64,000 nucleotides of DNA from Lachnospiraceae bacterium (GTDB lineage Bacteria > Bacillota > Clostridia > Lachnospirales > Lachnospiraceae), in assembly GCA_029338735.1 (NCBI GenBank), contig JAQYAY010000012.1, forward strand, positions 1-64,000. The letters are read 5' to 3'. Position numbers and translations under genes: made by a program. Below, piece by piece: positions 11,265 through 64,000 of the stretch; position 1 is the stretch's first letter; the number at the start of each line of letters is the position of its first letter. The notes beneath the pieces are model-generated. The model searched no databases. It was given only the letters and a program-made list of their open reading frames with translations, and had not been told where the DNA came from.

Positions 11265-11855
11265 TCAGTCAAATAATGTATCCTTTATGATATCTGTAAG
11301 CTCGTCTTTATTAGCTGCAAAAAGCTCATCTATAGAGACATTCTCTGCTGCCCCCTCATATGAAAGAATAAATCCATGAGCAAACGAAGCATTATTCATG
11401 CCTTCCACTATGGCTTTTCCTTCCGGAAGCTTTGCAGAAATCTGTGACACAAATCCCTTCGGGATTCTAGGCACATCTTCAGTCCCGAATGTGATCACTC
11501 CTCTTCCGTCATCAGCATTTTTGATAATAAGCTTCTCAAGAAAATCAGCATACTCGCTGTCAGACAGCTCGTAGAGCTTCTGCTTTGCAGCTTCAAGAGT
11601 CTCTGCGATGATCTCCTGCTTTGTTGAAAGGAGGCTGCGGCGCTTTATGATATCAGCCCCGTCACAAGCCTGCTTTACTATAGCAGCAGCACGGGCCTCG
11701 GCCTTCGCGGCAATTTCCTTTTCTTCGGCAGTGATCTCTTTTAAAGCCTCAGCAGCAATCTCGTCAGCCTTCTTTCTGGCTTGGCCCAGGATCGCACTGA
11801 CACCGTCTTTCGACTCCTGTTCGATCTCGCCTACAATCTTGTCTAAACCTGTCAA
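11265..11855 (-). CDS. ntpE: V/A-type ATP synthase subunit E
   Basis: Reads TGLDKIVGEIEQESKDGVSAILGQARKKADEI...; GGAGGTGAGAAG precedes a TTG start at 11855 (the track ORF extends to 11927). Confidence 0.88.
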   Translation of the reverse strand: MTGLDKIVGEIEQESKDGVSAILGQARKKADEIAAEALKEITAEEKEIAAKAEARAAAIVKQACDGADIIKRRSLLSTKQEIIAETLEAAKQKLYELSDSEYADFLEKLIIKNADDGRGVITFGTEDVPRIPKGFVSQISAKLPEGKAIVEGMNNASFAHGFILSYEGAAENVSIDELFAANKDELTDIIKDTLFD

Positions 11856-11927
11856 CTTCTCACCTCCATAACGCAACGTAAGACTTGTCTTCTTGTTGCG
11901 CTGTAAACTATCTGTGACGTGAACCAC

Positions 11928-12407
<480 letters not shown>

Positions 12408-14468
12408 TCAGATTTCCTCCTTAACTTTGAAATATTTTGTTTTTTCCTCAAACGGCTCGAACGGTCTACCGCCGCCGTTATAGAACTTGCCAAAGAACTC
12501 CACGTACTGGAGTCTGTTCGTATGCACATAAGCGCCAAGAGCGTTTATTGCAAGGTTTAATATGTGTCCGATCACAAAAATCACAGCATACAGTACCACT
12601 CCGATGACTACCGGCAGAGCACCGCCGACCATTCCTGCCATCGTATTGAATACCGAAGAGATAACCGATGTCGCAAGACCAAGTGCAAGAAGTCTCGAAT
12701 ACGAAAGCACATCTGATAAGTATGATGTAATTCCGTATGCACCGTACAGACCTTTTGCTAATCTCTTGCCCCAGTTCCTCGATTCTCTTCCTGAGAAAAG
12801 CACGACTCCGATAAATCCTATTATCGCAACCCAGATGGAAACGGTCTTTACCGTAGGTCCAAGGGTAAATGAGAGTCCGAGCATTCCTGTGATCATCGGG
12901 AGACACAGAAGAAGTACTACGCAGCCTCCGACAAACATATACCAGAATAGTCCGTCATAGATGGCATCAAGCACATGACCATTCTTAATGTCCTGATACA
13001 TCAGGATTCCAAGGCCTGTGAACAGATGCACGAGTCCGACTGCGAAGCAGAATGTAAGCATCCTGATAGGATCATCAAGAGGATTGAACCAGATCGGAGG
13101 CAACAGCTTGTCTGCTGTAGCTGCCGGCATATGGAAAAATGTCTGTGCCACTGAAGATACCACATCTCCAAAGAAGCTTCCAAAGATAAATCCCACGATT
13201 GTTGTGGCAATTCCGCAGTAGAAGAACATCTGAAAAGTCTTTTTCACAGCCTCTTCCATGTTCTTGAACTTTTTTAAGATAATGCCACAGGCAAGCGCTA
13301 TGATGATTCCATATGCTGCATCGGAAAGCATGAGGCCGAAGAAGAAATAGTAGAACACTGCTACCGCCATCGACGGATCTATCTCGCCCTTTCCTGGAAG
13401 AGAATAGCTGGCTATCACTCCTTCAACCGGTGCTGCAAATGCATTGTTGTGAAGCTTCACCGGTACATCTTCATCTTCCTCAGGATCTGAGAAATCACAT
13501 GCCAGATCAAATCTGTCATTGAGTGCACTTTCCAGCTTCCCAGCATCGACTGCCGGTACATATCCATGGATGATCACCACGTGGTCTGACTGATTCAGCT
13601 TTCCGATGACATCATACTTGTCTGATCTCATTTTGAAATAATCCATGATCAGACGGATATCTTCTTTTCTGTCAGCGTATCCTTTGATCTCTGAGATGAT
13701 CTGCTGTCTCTTTGCAGAAGCTCTCTGCTGCTGCGCATCAATCCTCTCGATTGCCTTTGCCGGCGTGAGCGGCTGGCCACCTTCCGATACACTTGCCTGC
13801 GATGGAGCCTTTGTGAAACTCATCCTGTGAAGTGCCTCATTCAGTACGCTCTCATTTTTCCGAAGAGTCGTAAACATCACTGCTGTACTCGTATCATTTG
13901 TAGTGATGATACGGACATCGACCTCGTCCGAACACTCACACAGCTCACCGAGCATTACGTAGATATCCTCAAGACTCAGCTGTCCGTTCAAGGTGCCGAT
14001 GAAGCTTATGGTCTTCTTCGTGCCCTGGAAATCAAGTGGCAGGTCGAACCCCCTCCACGGCGCAAGTGCCTCCTTGTCCATCTCTGCCTTTGGAACTGCT
14101 GCAAGTGATTCTGAGTATTCCCTGTATAGTGAATTGATCTGTGAAACTACTGAAAGAACTTCATCCCTCTTCTCAAGTGCATCCCTGAACTCATCGAGTG
14201 TCAGGGTCTTTCTTCCTGCAAAAGAAGATAAAAGCCCGCCTTTTTCCGGCTCGTACTTTCCTAATACTTCGAGTGCATCCTCCATTGAGCGGATATTTTT
14301 CTCGAAGATCTGCTTCTGTGCCGATACATCTATTTTCTTATACCGGCCGTCTTCCTGTGTATCTGTGTCTATTTCTGCTGTGCCCTGTCTCTGTAGAAAC
14401 TCAAGTAACTGTTTTCTGTCGCGGCGCATCGCAATGATGGTCATCCGCTTCATTGGCATCACAGCCAT
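12408..14468 (-). CDS. ntpI: V/A-type ATP synthase subunit I
   Basis: 686 aa; V_ATPase_I N-domain MKRMTIIAMRRDRKQLLEFLQ and C-terminal TM domain (FFFGLMLSDAAYGI, SYSRLLALGLATSVI). Confidence 0.95.
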   Translation of the reverse strand: MAVMPMKRMTIIAMRRDRKQLLEFLQRQGTAEIDTDTQEDGRYKKIDVSAQKQIFEKNIRSMEDALEVLGKYEPEKGGLLSSFAGRKTLTLDEFRDALEKRDEVLSVVSQINSLYREYSESLAAVPKAEMDKEALAPWRGFDLPLDFQGTKKTISFIGTLNGQLSLEDIYVMLGELCECSDEVDVRIITTNDTSTAVMFTTLRKNESVLNEALHRMSFTKAPSQASVSEGGQPLTPAKAIERIDAQQQRASAKRQQIISEIKGYADRKEDIRLIMDYFKMRSDKYDVIGKLNQSDHVVIIHGYVPAVDAGKLESALNDRFDLACDFSDPEEDEDVPVKLHNNAFAAPVEGVIASYSLPGKGEIDPSMAVAVFYYFFFGLMLSDAAYGIIIALACGIILKKFKNMEEAVKKTFQMFFYCGIATTIVGFIFGSFFGDVVSSVAQTFFHMPAATADKLLPPIWFNPLDDPIRMLTFCFAVGLVHLFTGLGILMYQDIKNGHVLDAIYDGLFWYMFVGGCVVLLLCLPMITGMLGLSFTLGPTVKTVSIWVAIIGFIGVVLFSGRESRNWGKRLAKGLYGAYGITSYLSDVLSYSRLLALGLATSVISSVFNTMAGMVGGALPVVIGVVLYAVIFVIGHILNLAINALGAYVHTNRLQYVEFFGKFYNGGGRPFEPFEEKTKYFKVKEEI

Positions 14469-52240: not shown

Positions 52241-54679
52241 TCAGTCTTCATCATCCGACGAAATCGCATCAAATCTGTAAAGGAACTTGACAGCGCCGTT
52301 CTTGCCATCGGCAATACCAGTGAAACTCTGATAGCTCTCACCAGCATCTATTGCGGCACGAAGGTGATTAGCAAGAGGCTTGATGTCACCATTATAGGCA
52401 TTGATCAGCTTCTCGATGCCTTCCTTGTTGAACTTCACGACACCATCATAGAGCTCGTCTGCACCATCAGCAAGTGAGCCTGATCCATCATAGAGCTGGT
52501 CGATTCCAGAACCAAGCTTTGTAGAACCATTGTATAGCTTATTGACGCCAGTAGAGATCTGACCTGCACCAGATGCGAGCTGTGAAGCACCGCCTGTAAG
52601 CCTGTCATTATTGGCAACGAGCTTCTGGCTGCCTGAATAGAGTTTATCTACACCATCAAGGAGTGCATTGACCTGAGTTGAAAGGCCTGAAATATTGGAC
52701 AGATTAACTCCACTTATATCTGCTGAATTAACAGCAGAATTCAGAGTATCAATTCCGGCACCGAGCTGCTTCTGACCATCGGCAAGCTTCTTCACTCCGG
52801 CATTTGCCTGAGTCATTCCATCGCTTACACTCTTTGCACCATCAGCCAGCTTTGAAGAACCATCAGCCAGCTGCTTGCTGCCATCTGTCAGCTTCTTTAC
52901 CTGTCCCTGTACTGCCTCACTCTTCAATGTACTTTCGAGCTGCCTGCCTGCTGTATCAAGAGCTGTCTTTGCGGCCTGAACCTGATGCAGTCCGTCAAGA
53001 ACTGTGTAGTATGTAGCAGTAGCCTTCGTAGCATCTCCACCATTGGCCTGTGCAAGTGCTGTGATCATCTGTTGCTGTCCTGCAGTGAGCTTTGTCACAA
53101 CAGTATCTATATTGTCAAGAGTAATCTTCTCGTCAGCTCCGAGAATTCCGCTCTGACGGAGAAGTCCGAGAACCTGCTCGGTATTGAGCTTCTGATTGAT
53201 CTCATTTGTCAGCTGCCTATCTGACTGGGCTGTGAACAGTGTGCCTGCACCATTCAGTACTGATGAGATCTGTCCGATTCCCTTGTCAAGAGCAGACGCT
53301 CCACTTGATACCTGAGAAGCTGCATCTGATACCTGCTTTGATCCGGCAGTCAGCTTGTCCATGCTGCTGACAAGTCCTGGATTCTTGTCCGTGCCATCAC
53401 CATTGTATCCGGCAACGAGCTGATCAGAACCCTTCTTCAGTGCTGCAACACCTGTAGACAGCTGCTGTAACTGCTGTACGAGATTGCTGCCTGAGAGCTG
53501 CTTTGTAAGTACCGGGACCAGTGTCTTTACAGGAGCGAGACTGCTGCGAAGCTGTCCGATTCCTCCATTCAGTTGTGAAACCCCGTTTGTATATGTCTTG
53601 AGTCCCTTTGAAAGCGTTCCTGCGCCATTTGAGAAAGTTCCCATACTCTTCTGAAGAGTACCAAGTCCGTTCGTGATCTGGCTGTTGCCATCCTTCAGCT
53701 GACCAGCGCCATCCTGTAGCTTCGTAGCACCATTACTCAGCTGCTTGCTGCCATCCTCTAGCTGCTTCGTAGCATCTGTGAGCTTGTCCATATCAGAGCT
53801 CAGATCATCCGTGCTCTCAGAGTTCGAAGTCAGGAGATTGGATGCATCGACAAGAGCTGTCATCTGAGTCTCAAGATCGAAATCTTTCACATCAGCCTCG
53901 ACATCAAATGACTCAGGAAGTGACAGATCCTTGTCGAAAGAACCGCCAGCCTTTTCAAGAGAATCCCTGACTCCCGGAAGTGCATATCCGAGGACGATTG
54001 ACTTCGTACCATTCTGTACGATACGGCCGTTAGTCACTTTTACATTGGAAAAATCATCGTTTAAGATCATTCCTGTAATGGCTGCAAATGGAACAACAAC
54101 TGATACTTTCTCGCCGTTTACTTTTTCCTCGAAATTCGTATTGTTCGTATAGTCATAATGGATCTTCACATGACCGCTCTGACCAGCAAGCTCGTCAGGA
54201 GTCACTTCATTTCCATCAAGCGTATAGGTGACTTTTACAGAGACAGGAGCCTGCTTCGTTGTATGACCCTGATAGTAGATATCATTGCCATCAGCCTGCC
54301 AGGTGAGCTTGTCACCATCCTGAGTGAACTTCTCATTACCATTCGTATTCGTGATGTCTGTCAGATCCTCTGCTACATCATCAATTGTATCCTCGCCGTC
54401 CTTATTGATGAGGTGAGATGCAACGATTGTATCAGATACTGAGCCATCCGGCTTGGAGATCAGGTAGACTGTCTCATCCTTGTCGAGATCCTTGCTCTCC
54501 ACTTTTACATGATCACCGTTTATCAGGCTGTTTGTCGTCTGTTCAGTCGCAGAAGCCTTATCTGCCATAGCTGTGTACTGAACTGAGCCTGTTGCCACAA
54601 GTCCTACAACGAGGGCGCCGGCAACAACTCTGATGATATATTTTTTCTTAAAAATCTTTCTTAATTCAGGTAACTTCAT
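52241..54679 (-). CDS. Membrane-anchored extracytoplasmic coiled-coil protein with xQLxxGxxxLxxG repeats (YhgE/Pip-like)
   Basis: One N-terminal TM (YIIRVVAGALVVGLVATGSV), then many DGSKQLSNGATKLQDGAGQLKDG-type repeats; ATG 54679 with AAAGGAG. Confidence 0.75.
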   Translation of the reverse strand: MKLPELRKIFKKKYIIRVVAGALVVGLVATGSVQYTAMADKASATEQTTNSLINGDHVKVESKDLDKDETVYLISKPDGSVSDTIVASHLINKDGEDTIDDVAEDLTDITNTNGNEKFTQDGDKLTWQADGNDIYYQGHTTKQAPVSVKVTYTLDGNEVTPDELAGQSGHVKIHYDYTNNTNFEEKVNGEKVSVVVPFAAITGMILNDDFSNVKVTNGRIVQNGTKSIVLGYALPGVRDSLEKAGGSFDKDLSLPESFDVEADVKDFDLETQMTALVDASNLLTSNSESTDDLSSDMDKLTDATKQLEDGSKQLSNGATKLQDGAGQLKDGNSQITNGLGTLQKSMGTFSNGAGTLSKGLKTYTNGVSQLNGGIGQLRSSLAPVKTLVPVLTKQLSGSNLVQQLQQLSTGVAALKKGSDQLVAGYNGDGTDKNPGLVSSMDKLTAGSKQVSDAASQVSSGASALDKGIGQISSVLNGAGTLFTAQSDRQLTNEINQKLNTEQVLGLLRQSGILGADEKITLDNIDTVVTKLTAGQQQMITALAQANGGDATKATATYYTVLDGLHQVQAAKTALDTAGRQLESTLKSEAVQGQVKKLTDGSKQLADGSSKLADGAKSVSDGMTQANAGVKKLADGQKQLGAGIDTLNSAVNSADISGVNLSNISGLSTQVNALLDGVDKLYSGSQKLVANNDRLTGGASQLASGAGQISTGVNKLYNGSTKLGSGIDQLYDGSGSLADGADELYDGVVKFNKEGIEKLINAYNGDIKPLANHLRAAIDAGESYQSFTGIADGKNGAVKFLYRFDAISSDDED

Positions 54680-54699
54680 AATGTTTCTCCTTTCATCTA

Positions 54700-56781
54700 T
54701 CATCTATCAGCTTTCGGCCTGAAACCGGCACTTGTGTGAATTATTATCTTATCAAATATCATAAACATCGACGGCAGCATGAAGATTACAACCACCATAC
54801 TGATCAGTGCACCTCTTGCCATGAGCATGCAGAGGGATGAGATCATGTCGATGTCAGAGTAGATTGCAACTCCGAATGTAGCTCCGAAGAATGTAAGTGC
54901 TGATGCAACGATCGAGGTGATCGACCCGTGCAGTGCATCGGTGATGGCATCCTTCTTCTCCATTCCATTGTACCGGTTCGTCTTGTACCTGTTCGTCATA
55001 AGTATTGCGTAGTCTACGGTAGAACCCAGCTGGATAGTACCTATGACAATGCTTGCAATGAACGGCAGCGTCACATTCGTGTAATAAGGAATACCCATAT
55101 TGATGGCGATAGCAAACTCGATGACAGCCACCAGAATAACAGGTATCGAAATCGACCTGAACGAAATCAGGATGATAAAGAACACGATAATGATTGATAC
55201 CGCATTTACACGATTGAAGTCTGTATTCGTGACATCGACCAGGTCCCTCGTACAAGGAGCCTCACCTATGAGCATTGCTGACTTGTCATAGCTCTTGATG
55301 ATCTTCTCAATCTGATTACACTGCTTATTGACCGCTGATGTAGCTGTCGCGTAATCGGATGTGACGATCATCAGCTGCTTGTCTCCGTTATTGATCTCTT
55401 CCTTTATATTCTGAGGAATGATATCAGATGGAATCATAGGACCTGTCAGTGAATCAGCAGATACTGCCATCTTGACACCCGGAAGCTTCTGGATGTCATT
55501 GATCATCTTATCCGACTGTTCTGCCGGCAGATCTGCATCTGCAATGATGACAGAAGTTGCACCCATCTTGAAATCACTGTTCATCTTTTCATTGGCCTGC
55601 TTGCTCTTCATCGAATCAGGAAGTCTGCCTGCGAGGTCGTAGTACACCTTCGTGTGATTCTGTCCATAGAATGCAGGAACTATCAACAGAAGGAAGATCA
55701 CGAAAAATACATAGCAGTGCTTTACTACCCAGTTGGCGATTTTTCCGAGGTCCGGCATGATGACCTTGTGATTCGTCTTGCGGACGATCGGGTCGAATAC
55801 CAGGATCAGTGACGGCAGGATGGTCACGCAGGAAACGAGTCCGAACAGAACACCTTTGGCCATTACGATACCGAGGTCAAGACCGATTCTAAAGCTCATG
55901 AAGCACAGAGCTATGAAACCTGCGATCGTTGTCGTCGAAGAACCCGCTATTGAAAGGAAAGTCTTACTGATGGCATGTGCCATTGCAGTCTTATTATCCT
56001 CTTTGAATACGTCCTGCTGCTCTTCGTAGCTGTGCCACAGGAAAATCGAATAGTCCATCGTGACACCGAGCTGCAGGACAGCTGCCAGGGCCTGCGTCAC
56101 ATACGAGATCTCTCCCTGGATGAAGTTCGTACCGAGATTGTACAGAACCGCCATTCCTATTGATACCAGGAAAAGGAAAGGCACAAAGGCCGAATCCAGT
56201 GTGATCATCAGGACTATGAGACAGAGTACAACTGCGATGATGACGTATATAGGAACCTCTTTCTCTGAGAGGTTTGCCGTGTCATTTATGACTGAAGCCA
56301 TACCTGATACGAAGCACTGCTTACTTAGCTTTGCATTCATGGTATTCAGGGCCTTCATCGTACCATCAGCGGCCATACCCTGATCAAACAGAATGACCAT
56401 CAGATCCGAATTCTTGTCTGCATTGTGGATGAACTTGTATGCCTTCTCAGGAAGTGCTTCCTTCGGGATATTCATGTCCATCACTGATCCGTACCAGAGA
56501 ACTTTCTTGACATGAGGGATATCTGAAATAGTATCCGCTGTCTTCTTCAGGTCCTTGTTGTCCATACCTTCGACTACAACGAATGAGTAGGCACCTGTTC
56601 CGAAATCCTTCAGCAGGATGTCCTGTCCTTTCATTGTGTCGATGTTTTTTGGCAGATACGAAAGAATATCGTAATTGACTCTCGTGTTCGCGTAGCTGAT
56701 CAATGAAGGTATCAGCAACAGCACAGCAAGGATCAGAATTACGAATCTGCTCTTTACTACTGCCTTTCCAAATTTTAACAT
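54700..56781 (-). CDS. MMPL/RND-family transporter
   Basis: Two repeats of 6-TM RND units; GVTMDYSIFLWHSYEE, GSTVDYAILMTNRYK. Confidence 0.92.
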   Translation of the reverse strand: MLKFGKAVVKSRFVILILAVLLLIPSLISYANTRVNYDILSYLPKNIDTMKGQDILLKDFGTGAYSFVVVEGMDNKDLKKTADTISDIPHVKKVLWYGSVMDMNIPKEALPEKAYKFIHNADKNSDLMVILFDQGMAADGTMKALNTMNAKLSKQCFVSGMASVINDTANLSEKEVPIYVIIAVVLCLIVLMITLDSAFVPFLFLVSIGMAVLYNLGTNFIQGEISYVTQALAAVLQLGVTMDYSIFLWHSYEEQQDVFKEDNKTAMAHAISKTFLSIAGSSTTTIAGFIALCFMSFRIGLDLGIVMAKGVLFGLVSCVTILPSLILVFDPIVRKTNHKVIMPDLGKIANWVVKHCYVFFVIFLLLIVPAFYGQNHTKVYYDLAGRLPDSMKSKQANEKMNSDFKMGATSVIIADADLPAEQSDKMINDIQKLPGVKMAVSADSLTGPMIPSDIIPQNIKEEINNGDKQLMIVTSDYATATSAVNKQCNQIEKIIKSYDKSAMLIGEAPCTRDLVDVTNTDFNRVNAVSIIIVFFIILISFRSISIPVILVAVIEFAIAINMGIPYYTNVTLPFIASIVIGTIQLGSTVDYAILMTNRYKTNRYNGMEKKDAITDALHGSITSIVASALTFFGATFGVAIYSDIDMISSLCMLMARGALISMVVVIFMLPSMFMIFDKIIIHTSAGFRPKADR

Positions 56782-56833
56782 CTGAAACTTTTCACTCCGT
56801 TTCTTTAAACATAATCTTTTCACAAATTATTAT

Positions 56834-59237: not shown

Positions 59238-60980
59238 TCACAATAACATCGTAAATTCAAGAGGTATATTACTGTCGCCCATGGACTTCCTAAAATCATA
59301 TGTTTTATCACAGTATTTCAAGATTCCCGGTCTGTGTGTTGTGACTACAGTCAGCCTGGACTCCTTGTCCCTCATTATATTTGCAATGACCTTTTCTTCT
59401 GTCGCAAGGTCCAGGGCTGAGGTTGCTTCATCAAGGACAAGGATTGGTGCCTTACGGAGAATGGCACGGGCGATTGCGATTCGCTGGATCTGACCTGATG
59501 AGAAGCCGTTCCCGCCTTCGAGGACTTCGGAGTCCAGTCCGCCTCTTTCTGATACGAAGTCCCAGGCACAGGCACATTTCAACGCTTCTATCATCTCTTC
59601 ATCAGAAGCCTGCGGATCTGCCGCCTGCAGATTCTCCCTGACACTGCCTGAGAACATCGTACTCTTCTGTGGCACTATCGAGAAAAATTTTCTGGTCGAT
59701 GCTGACAATGGCAGTTCCTTGCCATCACAGCTCACATATGCCTTTCCTTCTGAAAGTCTGACTAGTGATAAGAGACATCTTATAAATGTAGTCTTGCCTT
59801 CTCCCGATGGTCCGACACAGGCATAGGCTTTGCCTTTCTCCATTTCAAGAGAGACATCTTTAAATATGTAATCATCTGACCCCTCATAATGGAATGATGC
59901 ATTCTCAAAATGAACTGTGAAATCATCCTTTCTCATATCAGGCAGCATCTTCAGTGTCTTTGGATCATCTGAGAAGTCATCCTTATCCATATCAATGATT
60001 TCAAGAATTCGACGTGCTGATGTATCAAGAGAAATAGCCTGTGAAAATGATGAACCTAGCGAATTTACAGATCCTGTAAGTGTTCCTGACAGGCTTAAGA
60101 ACATGGTCATCGTACCATATGAGATAAAACCGGACCACACGCGGTAAATACCCCAGCCATAGGAAGAGTAACTGACAAGAAGACCGGCAAGACTTATGAT
60201 TATAGATGATGCAATAGTCATGTTATTGTAGTCTATCTTCATACGATTGAACTCCTGCAATGATTCTTTAAACCTTGCGGCATATAACCTGAGAAGATCG
60301 AATGCTTTAATAAAACCTATATTTGAAAATGTTTCCTGAGTAAATCCATATATATCGGAATTTTTCTTAGAACTGGCAAGGGAATTGTTCTGCATTTTCC
60401 TTGTCATCTTTCTGGATATCACTATTGAAAAAGGAATACCAAGGAGCGCAAATATCGCAAAAGTCCAGTCATACCACAAAACCATTCCCAAGGCTCCCAC
60501 AAACCTTACAATATTTGTAATAACCGCCGGTATAAAGCTCAACACACCAGATGAAATATTTTCCGTATCATTATTAAGTCGCGCTAAAATATCTCCCGAA
60601 TGATATTTCGAAAGTTTTTCCCATTTTGAATCTATCATTCGTCCAAATATTTCAGACTTAATCGACGTTGACACAGTCAGGCTTATCCTAAGTGAAAAAT
60701 AATTAGTCACCTGTGCTATCGCCATATTTACTAATGCAACAACAATAGTCAGAATAAAATATTTAAGCAGCTCCCCTTTTTCCTGACCAGTGATTATATC
60801 CACAAGATTTTTAGAAATTAATGAAGAAAGTAATCCTGTAAAAACACCTGTCAGACTCATTACTGTATAAAAAACAATGCTTCCAATATGCTGTCTGGTA
60901 AAATAATATACAAAAGAAATACTTTTTTTTAATGAGTCTGTATCCAGATTCATCAATCTTCCTATCAGGTTCTTCTTCAT
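59238..60980 (-). CDS. ABC transporter, fused permease/ATPase, no C39 peptidase domain
   Basis: 580 aa; VGPSGEGKTTFIRCLLSLV, GGNGFSSGQIQRIAIARAILRKAPILVLDEATSALD. Confidence 0.92.
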   Translation of the reverse strand: MKKNLIGRLMNLDTDSLKKSISFVYYFTRQHIGSIVFYTVMSLTGVFTGLLSSLISKNLVDIITGQEKGELLKYFILTIVVALVNMAIAQVTNYFSLRISLTVSTSIKSEIFGRMIDSKWEKLSKYHSGDILARLNNDTENISSGVLSFIPAVITNIVRFVGALGMVLWYDWTFAIFALLGIPFSIVISRKMTRKMQNNSLASSKKNSDIYGFTQETFSNIGFIKAFDLLRLYAARFKESLQEFNRMKIDYNNMTIASSIIISLAGLLVSYSSYGWGIYRVWSGFISYGTMTMFLSLSGTLTGSVNSLGSSFSQAISLDTSARRILEIIDMDKDDFSDDPKTLKMLPDMRKDDFTVHFENASFHYEGSDDYIFKDVSLEMEKGKAYACVGPSGEGKTTFIRCLLSLVRLSEGKAYVSCDGKELPLSASTRKFFSIVPQKSTMFSGSVRENLQAADPQASDEEMIEALKCACAWDFVSERGGLDSEVLEGGNGFSSGQIQRIAIARAILRKAPILVLDEATSALDLATEEKVIANIMRDKESRLTVVTTHRPGILKYCDKTYDFRKSMGDSNIPLEFTMLL

Positions 60981-60995
60981 TAATATTCCTTACAC

Positions 60996-61031
60996 AAAAA
61001 ACAGGGCTTATCATATTTTCGATAAGCCCTG
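60996..61031 (-). terminator. Intrinsic terminator between the 130-aa precursor-like gene and the ABC exporter
   Basis: Minus strand CAGGGCTTATC-N8-GATAAGCCCTG-TTTTTT. Confidence 0.8.
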
Positions 61032-61052: not shown

Positions 61053-61445
61053 TCAGTCAGTAATAGAAACAGAGGTAACTGCAAGACCGTCATTAGAAGA
61101 AACAACAAGATCCCCTAAACCAATATTATCAGTTGGATTCTGATGATATGTATATGCTATTTCAAGCGTAGATGTACCATTACCTGAAACATACTGACCA
61201 CTGCTGCTGTTATATGTTACTGGTTGATTGAAAGATATATGCAACACCTGTGCGTCCCTTGTATGGTCAGCTTTGTGCACTCCATTAACCTGAATTCTGT
61301 AAACATCACTGCCAGGTTGTGGCTTTTGATGAATATACGCAGTAGCTGTGTAACATCCAGAATTATTTGTTGCAGTATCTCCACTCTTCAGATAAATACC
61401 TTCTGCAAAATCGTCTGTTGTAAAAAACATCGGTTTCTCGTACAT
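61053..61445 (-). CDS. 130-aa beta-rich protein with RiPP-precursor-like leader (candidate secreted substrate)
   Basis: MYEKPMFFTTDDFAEGIYLKSG | DTATNNSGCYTATAYIHQKPQPGSDVYRIQVNG...; ATG 61445 with AAAGGTGA; own promoter and terminator. Confidence 0.7.
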   Translation of the reverse strand: MYEKPMFFTTDDFAEGIYLKSGDTATNNSGCYTATAYIHQKPQPGSDVYRIQVNGVHKADHTRDAQVLHISFNQPVTYNSSSGQYVSGNGTSTLEIAYTYHQNPTDNIGLGDLVVSSNDGLAVTSVSITD

Positions 61446-61523
61446 AATTGTCACCTTTCTCTTTTCATCAAGGATTAACGGTTAAATAGTACCGGTAAAT
61501 CTTCAAAATCATATTTAATGATT

Positions 61524-61552
61524 ATTATATCATGCGTAACAGAATTTTACAA
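61524..61552 (-). promoter_or_regulatory. Strong extended -10 promoter of the precursor-like gene
   Basis: Minus strand TTGTAA-17-TATAAT with TGA immediately before the -10. Confidence 0.75.
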
Positions 61553-61592: not shown

Positions 61593-62261
61593 TTACCTAA
61601 GTATTCCAAAGAGTTCCCTGAGCATGTATCTGGACGCATTATGGAATGTCAGATAGCTCTTCCCGTATGCCCTGTCATGCATGACTACAGGCACTTCTGC
61701 CACCTTTGCGCCTGAACGGATCATCCATGCAATACCTGATGGTTCAGGGCCACATTCAGGATGACGAATCATGAATCTGAGTGCCTTCCTGTCATACAGA
61801 CGCATCCCGGATGTAGGATCTGTAATCGTCTGACCTGTGCGCAGTCTGATTGCACCTTTCAGCAGGGTGCTCCCTGTCTTTCTGGCAGTTCCCATATTCA
61901 GCTTTTTCTTTCCAATCAGCCTTGAACCAATGACGATATCATATCCTTCATCAGCCTTTGCTGCCATGGCGCCTATATAGGCCGGATCATGCTGCCCATC
62001 AGCATCAATCTGCACCGCATATTTATATCCTTTTTCAAGTGCATATCTCATCCCGATTCTCATGGTCTCAGTAATGCCACGATTTACAATGTTTCTCACA
62101 TGATGATACTCATGTTTTTCAATAATGGAAAGAGTGTGATCTGTAGAACCATCATCAATGACCAGATAGTCATACTGCGGATATTTCTCCACCTTATCCA
62201 TCAATGACACAATCGAATCTTCTTCATTGTACGCTGGTATTATCAGCAATACGTCGTTCAT
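61593..62261 (-). CDS. GT2 (DPM1-like) glycosyltransferase
   Basis: LLIIPAYNEEDSIVSLMDKVE, YLVIDDGSTDHT, YAVQIDADGQHDP, DPTSGMRLYDRKAL. Confidence 0.92.
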   Translation of the reverse strand: MNDVLLIIPAYNEEDSIVSLMDKVEKYPQYDYLVIDDGSTDHTLSIIEKHEYHHVRNIVNRGITETMRIGMRYALEKGYKYAVQIDADGQHDPAYIGAMAAKADEGYDIVIGSRLIGKKKLNMGTARKTGSTLLKGAIRLRTGQTITDPTSGMRLYDRKALRFMIRHPECGPEPSGIAWMIRSGAKVAEVPVVMHDRAYGKSYLTFHNASRYMLRELFGILR

Positions 62262-63387
62262 AAAATATTTTCCCTGCTTCCTTTTCTTTCCTGAAATAAT
62301 AGCGGTACAGCGGAATAGTCCGGAGTATCATTTCACCACTCATGAGCCTGGCATCAAGCATTCTCTCGTTCCATACCGGAGTGATGATCCTGTTCATGAA
62401 ATCCATGGAGTCGTGCCCTGCATCCAGCTTCTCAATTATATTATCGTCAGACTTCTTAATAAAAGTAACAGATGAAAGTGCATTTTTTAAAACCGTATAA
62501 ATACCCGAAGTCCCGCACCATGGAATTCCATAGATATATGCCTTTCCATTTTCTGTCCCGAGCAGTCCCAGATCACCATTGATCACAGTGATATCGGCAC
62601 TCTCCTTTATCAGTTCAGACAGTGTAGTCTTTCCTGCACCAGAATGTCCGCTTATAAGAAAAGCTCCATATTGGTCCAGACATGCACAGCAGTGAAGAGC
62701 TATCTTTCTGTCCTTAAGTGCAGCGAGTAAGAATACTGGTCTAAGTGCCAGATATATCTCATCTTTTACGGCTTCTGTCGGTTCAATATCATCAGATCCA
62801 AGGCAAAGTACCGCCTCTTTATAATCCTTACTTATTTTTATCCATCTGATCGTCTCCAGCTCACTGTAGCAGAGCACATAGTCATCATGATTCTCATACA
62901 GACAGGCTACATCGTTCATGTAGACCTGCTGATGATATTCCGTGAAGTCATCATCTTCCTGACCAGATGATACAAACAGATCACAGTCATCATCAGAAAA
63001 AGGATCACATTTAAAAGAAAGGATCTCATCCCGCAGATACTTCTCTCCTTCATTAAAAATGATTCTGATCCCTGCCATTTCCAGATAGACTGCATTGTCA
63101 GATGGCTCTGCATAGGAAAAATCATCTGACATCAGGCCGGTAGCTGCCAGCGACTGAGTAAAGCTTCGCACATCGTCTGCTATATCATCTGCCTTTTCAC
63201 CTGTGTGGACAGATGCCAGTTCTATCAGTGCTCTCTCTGTGATCTCACACTCCATCTGCTGTGCAAGGAAAGCACCGAATTCATTGAGACCCACTCCTCT
63301 CACATGATATGCCTGTGCTGATGAATATGGCACAATGAAATAGTCGTCACCAGCCTTTTTTACAGAAACATCATCCCTTAAACGCAT
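62224..63387 (-). CDS. PqqD-like (RRE) N-terminus fused to HPr-kinase-like P-loop domain
   Basis: 387 aa; N-term RLRDDVSVKKAGDDYFIVPYSSAQAYHVRGVGLNEFGAFLAQQM; C-term GAFLISGHSGAGKTTLSELIKESADITVINGDLGLL...YIYGIPWCGTSG. Confidence 0.8.
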   Translation of the reverse strand: MRLRDDVSVKKAGDDYFIVPYSSAQAYHVRGVGLNEFGAFLAQQMECEITERALIELASVHTGEKADDIADDVRSFTQSLAATGLMSDDFSYAEPSDNAVYLEMAGIRIIFNEGEKYLRDEILSFKCDPFSDDDCDLFVSSGQEDDDFTEYHQQVYMNDVACLYENHDDYVLCYSELETIRWIKISKDYKEAVLCLGSDDIEPTEAVKDEIYLALRPVFLLAALKDRKIALHCCACLDQYGAFLISGHSGAGKTTLSELIKESADITVINGDLGLLGTENGKAYIYGIPWCGTSGIYTVLKNALSSVTFIKKSDDNIIEKLDAGHDSMDFMNRIITPVWNERMLDARLMSGEMILRTIPLYRYYFRKEKEAGKIFYERRIADNTSVQ

Positions 63388-63964
63388 TTTTCACTCCTCT
63401 GTATGCCTTTCTCAATGGTCTTAAAGCAGCCCACAGCCTGCCTCTTAGGAAAGAAGCCTTTGTATACCTGCCATTATGATAGAACCCCTTGAGGATTCCC
63501 TGAATCATATCCATTGTAACAGGGCCTTCAAGTTCTGTCTGATTGTCACCTGCGATATAGTACCCGTCTGCACTCACCTTTATCACACGATGCAGCACAA
63601 GCATCCCATTGTCTCTACGATACAGCACTATATCGTACTTCTCTGGCGGTCTGCTGACCGGAGAAATACTGATTCTGTCTCCATCCTTTATGAATGGCCA
63701 CATGCTGTTGCCTGAAGCCATCGCTGTAAAGGTGTCATCATCACTGAATACTTTTAGATATCCTGCTTCCTTTCCGCGGTTTTTGGCATCTTTCAGGACA
63801 GACATTGTAGATACATGACGAATCTTCCTGTTATTCCTGATGAATCCAATACCAACCCTGATGCAGAGGAACGGCCTGATAACAGGCTTCTTCCATCCAT
63901 CCGGATACTGTCTCTTCACCTGAGTGATAAATGTCGCCCAGAGTGACTTCGATGGGACAGCCAT
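63371..63964 (-). CDS. S24/S26-family (signal-peptidase-like, Ser/His) peptidase; frame open beyond the annotated start to the window edge
   Basis: GNSMWPFIKDGDRISISPVSRPPEKYDIVLYRRDNGMLVLHRVIKV...YYIAGDNQ; upstream in-frame sequence EGGDFGHHGAEK has no stop. Confidence 0.8.
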   Translation of the reverse strand: MAVPSKSLWATFITQVKRQYPDGWKKPVIRPFLCIRVGIGFIRNNRKIRHVSTMSVLKDAKNRGKEAGYLKVFSDDDTFTAMASGNSMWPFIKDGDRISISPVSRPPEKYDIVLYRRDNGMLVLHRVIKVSADGYYIAGDNQTELEGPVTMDMIQGILKGFYHNGRYTKASFLRGRLWAALRPLRKAYRGVKNAFKG

Positions 63965-64000
63965 TTTCTCTGCTCCATGATGACCGAAGTCACCACCCTC

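Follow-up and report, generated by a model that had tools for sequence, protein, structure and literature searches.

Gene organization at the precursor locus

The analysed window, a stretch of 64,000 nucleotides from a Lachnospiraceae contig, carries on its minus strand an open reading frame for a protein of 130 aa (61056-61445), referred to here as the precursor, with an ATG at 61445, a stop codon at 61053-61055 and a ribosome site (AAAGGTG, 61452-61458) 6 nt 5' of the ATG. The plus-strand frame over this ORF is interrupted by stops. A first-pass annotation had placed the gene here and had described its N-terminal sequence, MYEKPMFFTTDDFAEGIYLKSG, and a single cysteine; all of this was borne out, the cysteine being C31. 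The precursor gene occurs as a single copy in its own genome. A scan of genome contigs with the whole protein recovered 26 relatives (38-71% identity), and a search with a profile of the N-terminal 22 residues gave matches reaching E ~1e-14 per genome, so that the ORF is not a chance one. Searches with Pfam and NCBIfam models returned no match to the protein, the family had no PDB match at the sequence level, and a Sec signal peptide is absent from the sequence.

A promoter-like site (TTGTAA-17-TATAAT with TG, 61524-61552, minus strand) was recognised as a consensus match only, at 10 of 12 positions. Directly 3' of the precursor gene, and ahead of the exporter gene, lies an intrinsic terminator (61002-61031, minus strand) with a 12-bp stem and a T-tail (MFE -18.7 kcal/mol, z -5.15); this strong terminator sets a monocistronic precursor gene apart from the exporter gene downstream.

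The neighbouring genes are likewise on the minus strand. An MsbA-like ABC exporter (59238-60980; PF00664 and PF00005) has no C39 peptidase domain. A family-2 glycosyltransferase (61593-62261; PF00535, E 2e-25) belongs to a gene type usually grouped with Pel-type genes in the neighbourhoods. The next gene (62224-63387) encodes, by profile matches and AlphaFold2 modelling, an RRE of the PqqD fold (about residues 1-95) fused to an HprK/PEPCK-like kinase. It is followed by a fusion of an NTP_transf_5 nucleotidyltransferase to an SpI-type S24/S26 peptidase (PF14907, E 4.6e-34; PF00717, E 1.8e-6), the C-terminal part of which lies in the window (63371-64000); this gene continues to about 64855 past the window end (L036:7371-8855), and its product has 494 aa. 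Elsewhere in the window, positions 52241-56823 encode an 820-aa repeat protein, long and of secreted type, beside a 707-aa transporter-like protein; these are unrelated to the leader system.

The RRE-kinase family profile matched the lasso RRE TbiB1 at E 3e-5 and the RREs of LppB (9x8z) and of the paeninodin type (9x90) at E 0.005, and also the PbaB1 and TfuB1 structures. LppB residues N33 and D70, which matter for binding Tyr-type leaders (PMC13381572), have equivalents here (N in 31/36, D in 34/36). The RRE-kinase was modelled with a pLDDT of 91, and its kinase fold matched PEPCK and HprK. Kinase residues H232, K253 (the P-loop Lys) and D272 are invariant (36/36), and the first Asp of the HprK-type DD pair is a Gly in the family (NGD), which makes kinase activity uncertain. 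In the fusion protein, the G-D-x-D motif of the nucleotidyltransferase is conserved, as are the peptidase Ser, His and Asp (34/34 in the family); besides PF00717, the peptidase matches archaeal signal peptidase models, and on reading its domain has no obvious membrane segment. Because the exporter lacks a peptidase domain and there is an SpI-type peptidase, a double-Gly/C39 route was rejected as the main mechanism of export.

A leader conserved apart from its C-terminal parts

The leader (residues 1-22, 61380-61445, minus strand) follows the pattern Yx[KR]P-x9-EG[VI][YF]xxSG. Among 66 leader ORFs remaining after deduplication, P5, E15, S21 and G22 are each present in 66/66, Y2 in 65/66, and position 18 is Tyr or Phe in every case, counts that rest on the 22-residue leader profile and could be biased by it. 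Position 21 is Ser in all 66 and never Thr. The 26 loci recovered with the full-length protein as query carry the same conserved residues, and Y2, P5, E15, S21 and G22 were the sole invariant positions when proteins with eight different cores were aligned.

The C-terminal parts of the 66 ORFs fall into 11 groups by BLAST. Profile comparison joined type D to type A (probability 95) and gave no match for the other core groups, most of which hold few sequences. Leader genes with unrelated C-terminal parts often sit side by side in twos or threes, and at several loci a second ORF with the same N-terminus and a different C-terminal part lies about 400 bp upstream. The N-terminus is thus conserved separately from the domain. 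The leader string, in several spellings, was found in no publication. At one locus (L010:9392-9568) no more than 16 residues come after the leader, and they look like the beginning of a type A domain, so that this is either a truncated gene or a short precursor.

The ABC exporter, RRE-kinase, SpI-type peptidase and NTP_transf_5 enzyme recur around leader genes, the exporter gene adjoining them in most loci; some leader genes are far from any cassette. The latter (L074, L077, L078, L088, L090, L092) may encode substrates processed in trans; two of them, L077 and L078, have a common core with a weak ubiquitin-like match. At one locus (L083, G363:C97) a single leader gene is flanked by two RRE-kinase genes. 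At three others (L117, L118, L122), RRE and kinase are separate ORFs beside an exporter and an SpI-type peptidase, the nucleotidyltransferase being present as well at L117 and L122; no matching leader was found at these loci, which are probably further LPP-like clusters among Lachnospiraceae. A different leader, YQKPMVMIEDFTVSEMIAAASG, stands on a short Cys-containing protein beside an HprK-like kinase (L121:9246-9584, G210:C77), with a radical-SAM-like ORF nearby (11285-12430), and this locus is possibly another kinase-linked RiPP type.

Predicted structure of the C-terminal domain

An AlphaFold2 model of the precursor, built with 39 family sequences (mean pLDDT 76.9, pTM 0.65), predicts the leader to be disordered, residues 7-29, which take in leader and linker, having a pLDDT below 50. 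The remainder of the protein (residues 23-130, 61056-61379, minus strand) consists of a variable linker and a predicted seven-strand beta-sandwich with a CBM2-like fold (residues 30-130, pLDDT about 80-92). The top Foldseek match was the cellulose-binding domain 6qfs (E 6.6e-4, TM 0.75 by target, 2.2 A), and the CBM2 structures 3ndy, 2cwr and 1exg were also among the best matches. On the strength of the model, the domain is predicted to resemble family-2 carbohydrate-binding modules most, and the payload is probably a folded, glycan-binding domain. While the predicted fold is shared with CBM2, the precursor domain is only about 10-16% identical to it and has no Pfam match; since most type A cores have no Trp, the Trp face of classical CBM2 glycan binding is missing, and any glycan binding would not be through it. 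Between genera, type A cores keep an identity of about 50% or higher.

The first-pass reading of a RiPP-like leader joined to a beta-rich remainder of 108 aa agrees with these results. The 22-residue leader precedes unrelated C-terminal parts and is encoded next to an RRE, an SpI-type peptidase and an exporter, and structure prediction returned a disordered leader and linker attached to a folded domain. The further remark that a leader on a folded domain would be unusual holds for the architecture, as modelled, and has to be qualified as to its rarity, protein-sized LPP precursors having been published in 2026 (PMC13381572).

Co-inheritance with the RRE-kinase and linkage to Pel genes

Among 397 genomes of the family, the leader profile matched 23 and a full-length RRE-kinase (E <= 1e-80) was found in 23, both occurring together in 22 (Fisher p 7e-34). 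The one genome with only the leader is 68% complete, and the one with only the kinase has a weak leader match beside the kinase and exporter. PelG was present in 70/397 genomes, including 23/23 leader genomes (p 1.5e-19); these p values overstate independence, because the genomes are related. By coordinates, PelG lies on the leader's contig, within about 4-28 kb, in 19 of the 23 leader genomes, which represent 20 genera. A further 47 PelG genomes have no leader. In the wider phylum the precursor's own genome was the sole match among 399 genomes (E 1e-4), and one leader-type relative was found outside the family, at an Olsenella locus (L004), so that this form of leader looks mainly confined to the family.

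Comparison of genomes thus shows, at the level of sequence, a leader conserved apart from its payload and co-inherited with an RRE-kinase, an SpI-type peptidase, a nucleotidyltransferase and an MsbA-like exporter at or near a Pel-type locus.

A proposed pathway and its alternatives

The reading that we consider fairly likely is that the gene encodes the precursor of a pathway resembling that of the linear polyphosphorylated peptides (LPPs), RiPPs of Bacilli (PMC13381572), and that a folded, probably glycan-binding domain is exported into a Pel-type matrix. The YxKP motif would dock on the RRE, and the fused kinase would phosphorylate the invariant Ser21 of the xxSG motif (codon 61383-61385, minus strand). 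This predicted phosphoacceptor is suggested by analogy with LppK, which adds phosphates (polyphosphorylation) to core Ser3 and not to Thr or Tyr, an S3T variant being unmodified (PMC13381572). The nucleotidyltransferase may then extend the Ser21 phosphate with a sugar or nucleotide; for pseudomycoidin, phosphorylation of a Ser by the kinase and a requirement for the nucleotidyltransferase gene in hexose addition have been reported (PMC9266682).

The LPP SpI-type peptidase cuts after FET, aided by the RRE, and the leader is still cut off when GFP is fused to the core (PMC13381572). As the leader end differs here from the LPP consensus HQxIxFETxxS, the cut site is placed by analogy: when the two leaders are aligned on Y and P, the position cut in LPPs comes to lie inside EG[VI]Y, and 3-4 residues further on is the one Ser that all cores here have in common, which is why Ser21 is the predicted modified residue. 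The peptidase would thus cut within EG[VI]Y|xxSG, directly ahead of KSG and not at the end of it, and Ser21 would then occupy about position +3 or +4, whereupon the exporter would release the CBM2-like domain to act in the Pel-type matrix. The mature protein is probably part of the biofilm matrix.

It is also conceivable, if unlikely, that the leader has the folded protein cleaved and exported with no other modification, the kinase-like and nucleotidyltransferase domains doing no more than gating or regulating its processing. Besides the leader, an RRE, a peptidase and an exporter would be enough for this, the kinase is without one Asp of the DD pair, LPP cleavage proceeds in vitro without the kinase given the RRE, and deletion of LppN changed nothing in the LPP test (PMC13381572); however, the invariance of the kinase P-loop, His and Asp, the conserved nucleotidyltransferase motif, and the absence of Thr at position 21 all speak against it. 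Diverse cores behind one leader, adjacent paralogues and a patchy distribution would also suit bacteriocin-like or contact-acting effectors that use the same export machinery and diversify in an arms race. We regard this as very improbable, because type A cores are strongly conserved across genera, have a carbohydrate-binding-like fold and track Pel genes, and because an unsystematic look recognised no immunity gene. Least probable is a cytosolic, unprocessed protein whose N-terminus does no more than let the kinase fusion bind, as the missing Sec signal and the peptidase without an obvious membrane segment might suggest, given the exporter gene beside most leader genes and the like cleavage of the LPP leader.

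Should the LPP-like pathway be right, common gut bacteria would use RiPP-type leader recognition for the processing and export of entire folded domains as well as of short peptides. The kinase and nucleotidyltransferase of LPP and paeninodin-type clusters, both little understood, would be tied to a definite function in a Pel-type matrix, which the LPP authors had raised as an idea and did not test. A bolder and rather doubtful extension is that, guided by the leader, the N-terminal Ser of exported folded domains receives a phosphate-linked sugar, which could even be the Pel-type polysaccharide; a RiPP-type pathway would then be decorating matrix polysaccharide with proteins.

Comparison with known systems

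Gram-positive Pel clusters share PelF, PelG and a DUF4832 protein with this locus, and in Roseburia the Pel genes are reported to lie within larger clusters (PMC7112168). The leader system is not described for them in that paper, the text of which does not mention PqqD.

Lasso peptides of the paeninodin/pseudomycoidin type are alike in having a PqqD-type RRE that reads a [Y/W]xxP leader, an HprK-like kinase, an NTP_transf_5 enzyme and an ABC exporter. They differ in that here there is no B2 peptidase (no PF13471 in the precursor's own genome), no cyclase beside the cassette (the only Asn_synthase match of this genome is on another contig), and a folded protein as payload. A lasso precursor was rejected for the lack of a B2 gene and of a nearby cyclase.

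The closest parallels are with LPPs, the precursors of which have 35-200 aa, a conserved leader and variable C-termini (PMC13381572). Both systems combine an SpI-type peptidase, an RRE, an HprK-like kinase, an NTP transferase and an MsbA-like exporter as five core functions, and both have a YxxP leader, variable C-termini and a conserved Ser just after the leader (within xxSG here), at polysaccharide loci and with no cyclase; supplementary data of the LPP study may already list some of the relatives. In contrast to the discrete RRE of LPP clusters, RRE and kinase here form one chain, and in the precursor's own genome the nucleotidyltransferase is fused to the peptidase. Of the LPP leader YxxPxVLxHQxIxFETxxS, YxxP is kept and HQxIxFET is replaced by EG[VI][YF]xxSG, while the His-Lys-Asp-Asp set of the LPP kinase is reduced to His, Lys and one Asp, the other being Gly. 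The folded CBM2-like payload and the tight linkage to Pel-type genes are further differences. Since a discrete RRE and the FET leader end are two published defining features of LPPs, we set the present system apart from LPP members, and consider it likely, by analogy, that it works as they do.
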